Positions 51,258 through 54,417 of a DNA stretch of 64,000 bases are shown here, one piece after another. Within the stretch, counting starts at the first letter, position 1; every line of letters starts with the position of its first letter. A program made the position numbers and the translations under genes. Under the pieces are notes generated by a model that was not told the DNA's origin, did not search any database, and was given only the letters and a program-made list of their open reading frames with translations. The DNA is taken from NCBI GenBank assembly GCA_019044685.2, contig JAGTXX020000009.1:1550001-1614000 (forward strand). Direction: 5' to 3'. Origin of the DNA: Nannochloris sp. 'desiccata'. Its lineage: Eukaryota > Chlorophyta > Trebouxiophyceae > Chlorellales > Chlorellaceae.

Positions 51258-51271
51258 ATTCAACATTATGT

Positions 51272-51372
51272 TCCTATTCCGAAAGGGCGCAGGTTCGAAC
51301 CCTGCCGCGATCAGCCTGTTGGAAACTTCAGCGAGATCGCGTGGCCGAGTGGTCTAAGGCGGTAGGGTAAGG
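51272..51372 (+). tRNA. circularly permuted tRNA-Leu(AAG)
   Basis: The 3' half (51272-51313) precedes the 5' half (51335-51372), with 21 nt between them. Joined 5'-to-3' they form an 80-nt class II tRNA. Acceptor GATCGCG (51335-51341) pairs 7/7 with CGCGATC (51306-51312), with discriminator A at 51313 and no encoded CCA. D arm is GCC/GGC (51344-51346, 51358-51360). Anticodon stem GTAGG (51362-51366) pairs with CCTAT (51273-51277) with one G-T. The anticodon is AAG (51369-51371) with U33. The variable arm is a CC/GG stem capped by GAAA. T arm is GCAGG-TTCGAAC-CCTGC. The flanks ATAAT (51373-51377) and ATTAT (51265-51269) pair 5/5. With the GTT bulge (51270-51272) this gives a bulge-helix-bulge-like junction cut at position 37/38. 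Box B therefore precedes box A. Confidence 0.93.
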
Positions 51373-51379
51373 ATAATTC

Positions 51380-51383
51380 TTTT
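51380..51383 (+). terminator. RNA polymerase III T4 terminator
   Basis: TTTT lies 7 nt after the 5' half of the permuted tRNA, just past the bulge-helix-bulge strand. No T4 run occurs between 51239 and 51379, so leader, both halves and the junction helix would be in one transcript. Confidence 0.75.
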
Positions 51384-51906: not shown

Positions 51907-54417
51907 ATGTTGGCTCTACAACGACAGCTAACAAGGCGGTCCGCCCTTGTGGGGATCAGCAGGTGGAGTAGCACTGATTCTTCAATGGTCGAAGCTTGGG
52001 AAACAAAAGCCAGGAAAGAAGCCAAAGGCCAGGATCCATATCAAGCATTTAGATCCAAGAATCATGATGTAGGTGTCAGAATGAAGCACGTAGTATGGGG
52101 CTTTGAGATCACAATTTCAATCCAAAGTGAATTTATTTACGCAATTGATAAGTACTAATGGTTCCACTCCTCCATTACCTGCAGGGGGTAGATCTTAAAC
52201 CTGTGTACAGCAAGAGTGATTTAGATGTGCTCCCCGATTACGGTGAAGAGTTTCCTGGGGTCTCTCCATTTACCCGAGGCCCCTACGCCTCCATGTATGT
52301 GCTTTCTTTGCCTCTCAAAAGATTATTCCCTCCTTCTTTGTCTCACACAATCTTCATGTGACGCTCTATTTTGCCTCGAATGATGCAGGTACTCTGGCCG
52401 CCCTTGGACTATCCGTCAATACGCAGGTTTTTCAACTGCTGAAGAATCCAACGCCTTTTACCACCGCTGCCTTGCTGCTGGCCAACAAGGCATCTCCGTT
52501 GCTTTCGATCTAGCCACCCATAGAGGCTATGATAGTGATCACCTACGTGTTTCTGGAGACGTCGGTATGTCTGGTGTGGCGATAGACTCTGTAGAGGACA
52601 TGGCTATTTTATTTTCTGGGATCCCTCTTGATCGCATGTCGGTATCAATGACAATGAATGGCGCAGTGCTTCCAATTCTCGCTATGTACATTGTTGCAGC
52701 TGAGGAAGATGGTGTGGAAGCTTCTAAACTTACTGGAACTATTCAAAATGATATTTTAAAGGAATTTATGGTTCGAAATACATACATCTACCCGCCACAC
52801 CCCTCGATGAGGATCGTAGGTGACATTTTCGCTTATTCTGCTAATCACATGCCTAAATATCACCCTATTTCTATTTCTGGTTATCATATGCAAGAAGCAG
52901 GCGCCACATCAACACTAGAACTTGCTTTTACTTTGGCCGATGGACTGGAATATCTCCGCTGTGCTGCCTCGGCAGGACTCCCTGTAGATGCCGTTGCTCC
53001 TCGTCTTTCCTTCTTTTTCGGCATCGGGATGGATTTTTTCACTGAAATAGCCAAACTGCGTGCTGCGCGTAGGCTCTGGGCGCGCCTTCTTCGTGATAAA
53101 ATGGGCGCCAAAGATGAACGCTCTCTTGTCCTTCGAACACATTGCCAAACAAGTGGCTATTCCCTTACAGCGCAGGAGCCATACAACAATATCATCCGTA
53201 CGACAATTGAAGCCATGGCTGCTATCTTAGGAGGCACACAGAGCCTCCATACAAACTCTTTTGACGAGGCCATAGCCCTTCCTACCGACTTTTCTTCAAA
53301 GCTCGCGAGAAATACTCAATTGATTTTAGCTGAGGAGACAGGTATCCCTGCAGTGGCAGATCCTTTGGGTGGCTCATATTATATAGAAAGCTTGACTGCT
53401 AGAATAGAAGCGGATGCTGAAAAGCTAATTCATGAGATTGAAGATCTGGGCGGCATGACCGAGGCGATTGTGGCGGGTCTGCCGAAATTGAAAATTGAAG
53501 AATGTGCTGCTCGGCAACAAGCTCGTATTGATAATGGAAAACAAGTTATTGTCGGAGTGAATAAGTACCACAGAGAGAATGGTCGTGTTGGCAGCGGTAG
53601 TAGCAACAATGAAGATGAAAATCAAGAGCAAACAGAAGAAGACCTTGTAGTACGTCAAATTGACAACACTGCTGTTTTAGCTACTCAAACAAAGCGATTG
53701 GAACGTCTACGAGCAACCAGAGACTTAGAGAAGGTTGAACAAGCGCTGAAAGCTATCGAAAATGCAGCACGATCGAGTGAAAGAACTGAAGAAACCAATT
53801 TGTTGGCACTTTGCGTGGAGGCTGCTCGTGCCAGAGCAACTGTTGGAGAGATAACAAACGCCATGGAGAAGGTCTGGGGTCGTTATGAAGCTAGCACAGG
53901 TATGGCGACTGGTACCTATGGTGCAGAAGTCGGTGCAAATACCGTTGACGGTATTCAAAAAGACCCTGAACTCGCTGCTGTAGCTGCAGCGGTGGAACGT
54001 TTTGAGGCCGACCAAGGCCGGCGTCCTCGTATCCTAGTAGCGAAGATGGGCATGGATGGCCACGATCGTGGGGCAAAAGTAATGGCCACTGGTTTAGCAG
54101 ATCTCGGGTTTGATGTGGATGTCGGTCCTCTGTTCTTAACTCCAGCAGAGGTAGCTCGCCAAGCTGTTGATGCAGACGTCCACATCGTTGGCGTGTCGAC
54201 TCAAGCGGCCGGGCACAGGACTTTGGTACCTCAACTGATGAATGAGCTTCGAAAGCAGGGGGCTAATGATGTGATGGTTATTTGTGGAGGTATTATTCCT
54301 CAACAGGATCATGCAATGTTGGAAAATGAAGGTGTAGCTGCCATTTATGGACCCGGCACCCGAGTGCCATCAGCCGCATTGGATATGTTGAATATATTGA
54401 TGAAGGAGCAACCTTGA
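51907..54417 (+). CDS. MMUT: methylmalonyl-CoA mutase, mitochondrial, adenosylcobalamin-dependent
   Basis: Exons 51907-52068, 52185-52294 and 52389-54417 give 766 aa, the single-chain form. The presequence [20 protein letters not shown] is Arg-rich and amphipathic. The TIM-barrel half has [52 protein letters not shown] and [20 protein letters not shown]. The B12-binding half has [20 protein letters not shown] (DxHxxG base-off His loop, near residue 643), [17 protein letters not shown] and [12 protein letters not shown]. It converts methylmalonyl-CoA to succinyl-CoA in propionate and branched-chain breakdown. A poly-Glu/Asn linker lies between the two halves. MMADHC, needed to supply its cofactor, is at 24.9 kb. 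Confidence 0.96.

Follow-up and report, generated by a model that had tools for sequence, protein, structure and literature searches.

A circularly permuted tRNA-Leu(AAG) gene of the green alga Nannochloris, one of at least 28 tRNA isoacceptor genes of similar build

A 64,000-nt stretch of the Nannochloris nuclear genome (the window; C9:1550001-1614000, GC content 45.1%) was analyzed for a tRNA gene whose halves appear in reversed order. Sequence tests best back the reading of positions 51272-51372 as a circularly permuted tRNA-Leu(AAG) gene of type II with its junction at 37/38. It is very probably a working, single-copy nuclear gene of this small-genome green alga and one of at least 28 isoacceptor genes that are built in a similar manner.

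Structure of the tRNA-Leu(AAG) locus

The gene occupies 101 bases of the plus strand and consists of a 42-nt 3' half, a 21-nt spacer and a 38-nt 5' half, in that order. A permuted-cloverleaf parser, which demands all arms in permuted order including U33, assigned tRNA positions 38-73 to the 3' half (51272-51313). This half comprises the 3' strand of the anticodon stem (51273-51277), an 11-nt variable arm (51278-51288), the T arm (51289-51305), the 3' strand of the acceptor stem (51306-51312) and the discriminator A73 (51313). A TTTT-free spacer (51314-51334) links position 73 to position 1. The 5' half (51335-51372; positions 1-37) follows with the 5' acceptor strand (51335-51341), the D arm (51344-51360), the 5' strand of the anticodon stem (51362-51366), U33 (51368), the anticodon AAG (51369-51371) and position 37 (51372). 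Joining the halves at 37/38 creates a 7-nt anticodon loop with U33. The 11-nt variable arm, the anticodon and A73, which is the usual discriminator of tRNA-Leu, are those of a nuclear tRNA-Leu(AAG). A 3' CCA is not encoded at the locus. Upstream, the leader strand ATTAT (51265-51269) can form five of five Watson-Crick pairs with the trailer strand ATAAT (51373-51377), as read from the sequence. The TTTT at 51380-51383 is a probable RNA polymerase III terminator, and its placement is common to 26 of 27 permuted genes. The preliminary description of the window had put this terminator directly downstream of the gene; the run is present but starts seven bases beyond the 5' half. A methylmalonyl-CoA mutase gene with a B12-binding domain adjoins the tRNA gene (52567-54417, plus strand).

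The same description had stated that the locus makes no tRNA when read in normal order. In agreement with this, nothing was called in the window by ARAGORN with anticodon-loop introns of up to 3000 nt allowed, by ARAGORN in bacterial mode or by Rfam at gathering scores. A conventional intron-containing tRNA fails as an explanation because the 5' half is not upstream of the 3' half. Once 51335-51372 was joined to 51272-51313, the sequence letters gave the 80 nt that had been predicted, and ARAGORN called them as tRNA-Leu with anticodon AAG and no intron. The parser likewise returned the pairing claimed for the acceptor stem (7/7), the T stem (5/5), the anticodon stem (5/5 with one G-U) and the D stem (three pairs, with three of four positions scored). 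The variable arm does have a stem of its own, but with 2 bp (CC/GG around GAAA) it is thinner than had been implied.

The copy number of the gene was addressed by genome searches. In the 21.55-Mb assembly the rejoined 80-mer matched only its own two halves among the best candidates scored. Whether another tRNA-Leu(AAG) exists had been raised as a check, and none was found among the best-scoring candidates of the Rfam tRNA and 80-mer searches; as these searches score best candidates only, a second, diverged copy could have escaped. An exact 26-base piece of the gene was absent from the viral contigs searched. CTT and CTC together account for 119 of the 305 leucine codons in seven open reading frames of the window, and these codons are normally read by an AAG (inosine) anticodon. 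If there is indeed no other tRNA-Leu(AAG), the permuted gene is needed. A decayed and now unused relic, left after a tandem duplication of tRNA-Leu by loss of the outer halves, is an improbable alternative. The available parts of PMC3978253 propose duplications of this type as the origin of permuted genes, and a probable relic lies elsewhere in the genome (C11:1726.9 kb), but every arm of the Leu(AAG) gene is intact, its TTTT stands at the usual distance and common CTT/CTC codons face no other Leu(AAG) gene that could be found.

A permuted-tRNA search had also been proposed, and the permuted-cloverleaf scan of the window produced one match, the Leu(AAG) gene, with a score of 20.2. When the window was shuffled 150 times with dinucleotide composition retained (19.2 Mb, both strands), four matches were obtained, of which the best scored 17.6 and none reached 18, and 404 kb of reversed sequence contained no match. 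The folding of the rejoined RNA is less clear-cut: its minimum-energy fold (-34.2 kcal/mol) lies below the cloverleaf (-28.3 kcal/mol), so the minimum is not a cloverleaf, which counts against the reading as a working gene. The acceptor stem is formed in the energy minimum of 25 of 27 permuted tRNAs (the exceptions are Leu(AAG) and Thr(TGT)) and of all eight conventional ones. Although the fold would suit two unrelated tRNA-like pieces that resemble a gene by accident, this explanation is hardly credible, as the preliminary description had already judged, because the shuffled null excludes it in practice and the 80-nt ARAGORN call comes with a Leu-type arm, U33 and A73.

Permuted and conventional tRNA genes of the assembly

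The assembly comprises 18 contigs, with CCCTAAA telomeres at two of the four contig ends read. Two proteins encoded in the window have their nearest homologs in metagenomic sequences and, among named organisms, in Micractinium and Chlorella. An Rfam tRNA search of the assembly returned 16 matches, ten of them above the cut-off; the six others are pieces of other permuted genes. The genome was sampled with short T-arm and D-arm patterns, and 153 stretches were scanned with the parser and with R1, a covariance model for the permuted layout. The inventory is incomplete. Of the matches to the A-box patterns (49, 34, 14 and 11), the D-arm-like ones were fetched, several of which turned out to be coding sequence.

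The training set of R1 comprised five real permuted genes and six conventional tRNAs whose halves had been swapped in silico. A first alignment (A1) was not used for the model because MAFFT had misaligned the D loops, and in its replacement (A2) the register is held by N pads and trimmed letters. The Leu(AAG) gene of the window, which is absent from the training set, scored 42.5 bits. Ten conventional-order tRNA loci served as a control and reached at most 25.3 bits, as half matches, even though R1 had been trained on permuted versions of several of them. As the E-values of R1 overstate significance, calls were based on the interval that separates 25.3 from 35.6 bits, together with the separate parser. 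R1 scores of at least 35.6 bits were reached by 27 permuted isoacceptors, two further Trp copies and the probable relic; permuted Thr(CGT) scored 50.8 bits.

In total, 28 permuted isoacceptor genes were found, compared with eight in normal order, three uninterrupted and five with an intron at 37/38. The permuted count covers junction 37/38 only, and all resolved permuted junctions are at this position. ARAGORN called all 28 permuted genes once their halves were rejoined, and none of 27 in genomic order with introns of up to 300 nt. The permuted set includes every isoacceptor found for Arg (ACG, TCG, CCG, TCT, CCT) and Leu (AAG, CAA, TAA), together with Ala (TGC, CGC), Asn (GTT), Cys (GCA), Glu (CTC), Gly (TCC), Ile (AAT, TAT), Lys (CTT), elongator Met, Phe (GAA), Ser (GCT, AGA), Thr (AGT, TGT, CGT), Trp (CCA), Tyr (GTA) and Val (AAC, CAC). 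Conventional genes encode Val(TAC), Gln(CTG) and initiator Met without an intron, and His(GTG), Pro(TGG), Ser(TGA), Asp(GTC) and Ser(CGA) with a 37/38 intron of 21-45 nt. Ser(CGA) was assigned by eye, ARAGORN having labeled it Pro(CGG). The ARAGORN parse was used for Val(CAC), which the parser missed because it demands U33, and for Trp and Cys, for which the parser first gave long variable arms.

The permuted share is thus 28 of the 36 isoacceptors resolved. It falls to 28 of 39 when three genes that were set aside are counted as conventional, namely two conventional-order Ser(GCT) genes that look organelle-like by eye and one odd Pro(CGG) gene. Two extra Trp copies were left out of the isoacceptor count. 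Relaxed parser matches scoring 14-16 (L026 on the plus strand, L053, L127, L141 twice, L162, L163) were rejected as chance or repeats.

A bias towards permuted genes was checked with the T-arm pattern GGTTCRANYCC, which is indifferent to gene order. All of its 141 matches (66 + 75; three palindromic places are counted twice) fall within the sequence that was scanned. Permuted genes hold 23 of them (21 isoacceptors; three are Trp copies) and nuclear conventional genes six, while further matches fall in the probable relic, the odd Pro(CGG) gene and the two organelle-like Ser genes. The remainder look like chance matches; the reversed pattern gives 187. The T arms of permuted Tyr, Cys, Asn, Val(AAC), Val(CAC), Thr(AGT) and Thr(CGT) differ from this pattern, and these seven genes were picked up by D-arm patterns or Rfam; Val(TAC) and Gln(CTG) were found through Rfam. 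Glu(TTC), Lys(TTT), Gln(TTG), Gly(GCC), Ala(AGC), Pro(AGG), Leu(CAG) and Leu(TAG) were not found with Rfam, the patterns or the 37/38 scans; isoacceptors missing from the inventory, such as Glu(TTC), must exist in some form.

A misassembly that swapped the two halves of the Leu(AAG) gene can be given almost no weight, as 28 isoacceptor loci spread over many contigs all show this order with differing spacers of 5-73 nt, and each permuted locus has its own T run and a TTTT-free body.

Transcription and processing of permuted tRNA genes

The distribution of T runs was used to delimit the transcription units. TTTT starts at most 20 nt past the 5' half in 26 of 27 permuted genes, compared with 13-14% of random window positions, and TTTTG occurs within 30 nt downstream in 19 of 27, compared with 5% at random. 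Thr(CGT), the 28th permuted gene, has TTTT directly after its 5' half. In conventional genes the T run is found past the 3' half (8/8 within 17 nt). None of the 27 permuted gene bodies contains TTTT, although 46% would be expected to from length-matched random pieces, and the spacers alone are also free of it (0/27, 3.3 expected, P 0.025). Spacers have a median length of 17 nt (n=27), and that of Thr(CGT) measures 54 nt. Terminators past the 5' half and TTTT-free bodies suggest that RNA polymerase III transcribes each permuted locus, from 3' half through spacer to 5' half, as a single unit. That the halves are instead transcribed separately and joined in trans, in the manner of Nanoarchaeum, is extremely improbable: they do lie separately on the DNA, but the spacers between them are short and without TTTT, and the T run of each unit comes only after the second piece.

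The promoter arrangement is unusual, with the B box ahead of the A box in every permuted gene. A TATA box, searched as TATAWA in positions -110 to -1, was seen in none of the 27 permuted genes, compared with 9% at random. Together these observations suggest that RNA polymerase III would have to cope with internal promoters in reverse order or rely on a different signal. A TATA element is not defining in green algae, as the parts of PMC3978253 at hand describe merely an ambiguous AT-rich upstream region for green-algal permuted genes.

The flanks of the genes were compared as a possible splicing motif. Over the 27 genes, pairing of the leader is better with the anticodon loop and trailer of the same gene than with swapped partners (permutation p 0.014), which offers modest support for such a motif at the level of sequence. 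The preliminary description had drawn attention to the outer flanks of the Leu(AAG) gene; all five pairs can form, yet taken alone they are unremarkable, since 10 of 27 trailers, its own included, pair with this leader as well or better. Two proteins with the catalytic domain of tRNA-intron endonucleases (tRNA_int_endo, PF01974; 69.6 and 57.6 bits) are encoded in the genome.

We infer that the permuted Leu(AAG) gene would be transcribed by RNA polymerase III into a single RNA of leader, 3' half, 21-nt spacer, 5' half and trailer that ends at the TTTT. In the folded precursor, the anticodon stem would enclose the rest, so that tRNA-splicing endonuclease could remove both flanks, cutting the leader off behind 51271 and the trailer ahead of 51373, as for a 37/38 intron. 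A ligase would then join position 37 to position 38 into a circle, and the spacer would be removed by RNase P and tRNase Z before CCA addition and use as a functional tRNA. The steps at the RNA level (circle, RNase P, RNase Z) are proposed by analogy with other algae, for which the permuted-tRNA pathway was shown biochemically according to PMC3978253, as far as it is available. As most of the tRNA genes found are permuted, working tRNAs of Nannochloris probably require a circular RNA. It is fairly likely, with at least 28 of 36 genes permuted, that permutation is the default nuclear tRNA format, that most translation needs RNA circularization and that RNA polymerase III tolerates reversed promoters or follows another signal. 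With a mostly permuted set, hardly any translation would proceed without the splicing enzymes. Most of the tRNA set escapes standard annotation (ten Rfam matches above cut-off). Three questions thus become testable: how RNA polymerase III copes with A and B boxes in reverse order, whether duplication followed by loss gave rise to permuted genes (this genome does hold possible relics) and whether a streamlined genome leads to permutation.

Known permuted tRNA genes and further tRNA-like loci

Permuted tRNA genes are a known kind, to which the Leu(AAG) gene adds one. Maruyama et al. (2010) reportedly described them in the prasinophytes Ostreococcus and Micromonas and in chlorarachniophyte nucleomorphs. 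The accessible text of PMC3978253 counts 34 permuted tRNA genes by 2014 in six algae and one archaeon, the carriers being C. merolae, four prasinophytes, a nucleomorph and the archaeon. Two more are reported for the Amorphochlora nucleomorph (PMC4494063, in part), and the green alga Auxenochlorella was added in 2025 (PMC12636532; preprint PMC12633428; both in part). The earlier listing of Cyanidioschyzon, prasinophytes and a nucleomorph thus stands but lacks Auxenochlorella. No permuted-tRNA report for Nannochloris was encountered in the literature searched, which was mostly non-subscription and did not extend to the 2022 genome paper. The Picochlorum SENEW3 paper mentions tRNAscan-SE and, in its available part, not the word 'permuted'.

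The genes of prasinophytes, which also belong to the green lineage, and of nucleomorphs resemble those described here in build. Their junction is nearly always at 37/38, their spacers measure 5-64 bp and many of them encode class II tRNAs (Ser, Leu), but there are two to six per genome compared with at least 28 here, and Leu(AAG) is absent from their table in PMC3978253 (available in part). The same partial source describes for C. merolae the order 3' half, spacer, 5' half and T stretch, as here, and a circular intermediate. C. merolae differs in that 11 of 43 genes are permuted rather than 28 of 36 resolved isoacceptors, junctions occur at several positions rather than at 37/38 only, and a TATA-like upstream element is present, whereas TATAWA was not seen in 27 genes here. 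The permuted share of Nannochloris is higher than the 11/43 of C. merolae, the highest published share in this comparison, which does not include Auxenochlorella. Auxenochlorella UTEX 250-A is likewise a trebouxiophyte with a streamlined genome, whose tRNAscan-SE set was incomplete until permuted genes were found; going by the available part of PMC12636532, its permuted proportion may resemble that of Nannochloris. In the archaeon Thermofilum pendens the 3' half also precedes the 5' half, but its junction is at 59/60 and CCA is encoded (PMC3978253, in part), in contrast to 37/38 and no encoded CCA here.

Several further loci carry tRNA-like sequences. At C11:1726760-1727180 (L055, 185-270; 35.6 bits) permuted Leu-like halves share the acceptor stem of the window gene. 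As no anticodon arm was recognizable and no T run was present in the 45 nt inspected, this probable relic was excluded from the permuted count. The odd Pro(CGG)-like gene (L111, C5:482730-483150, 32-230; R1 24.4 bits) was rejected as a permuted gene because it is in conventional order with a 37/38 intron. It has an additional 93-nt GT...TACTAAG...CAG insert between positions 31 and 32 that resembles a spliceosomal intron, its G18G19 is disrupted and its acceptor stem has a mismatch at 6-67; it is possibly a pseudogene. Directly upstream of permuted Thr(TGT), an extra T-arm-bearing piece resembling a 3' half (L069, C16:206880-207300, approximately 190-227) is possibly a duplication remnant. Two inverted permuted Trp copies, one with two additional bases in its 3' half, lie near a contig end (L046, C8:551360-552780), and a third copy is found at C8:321.5 kb. 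Permuted Val(CAC), in which C33 replaces U33, and Val(AAC) are 1.8 kb apart and form a recent-looking pair (L079, C12:297900-301200). Identical 280-bp stretches at C6:2472 kb (L005) and C13:296 kb (L006), each with a conventional Ser(GCT), look like organelle DNA inserted in the nucleus. Finally, a repeat with a period of 3,182 bases carries a chance T-arm motif at C9:1056010, 1059192 and 1062374 (L127, L162, L163) and at C12:202.6 kb (L141).
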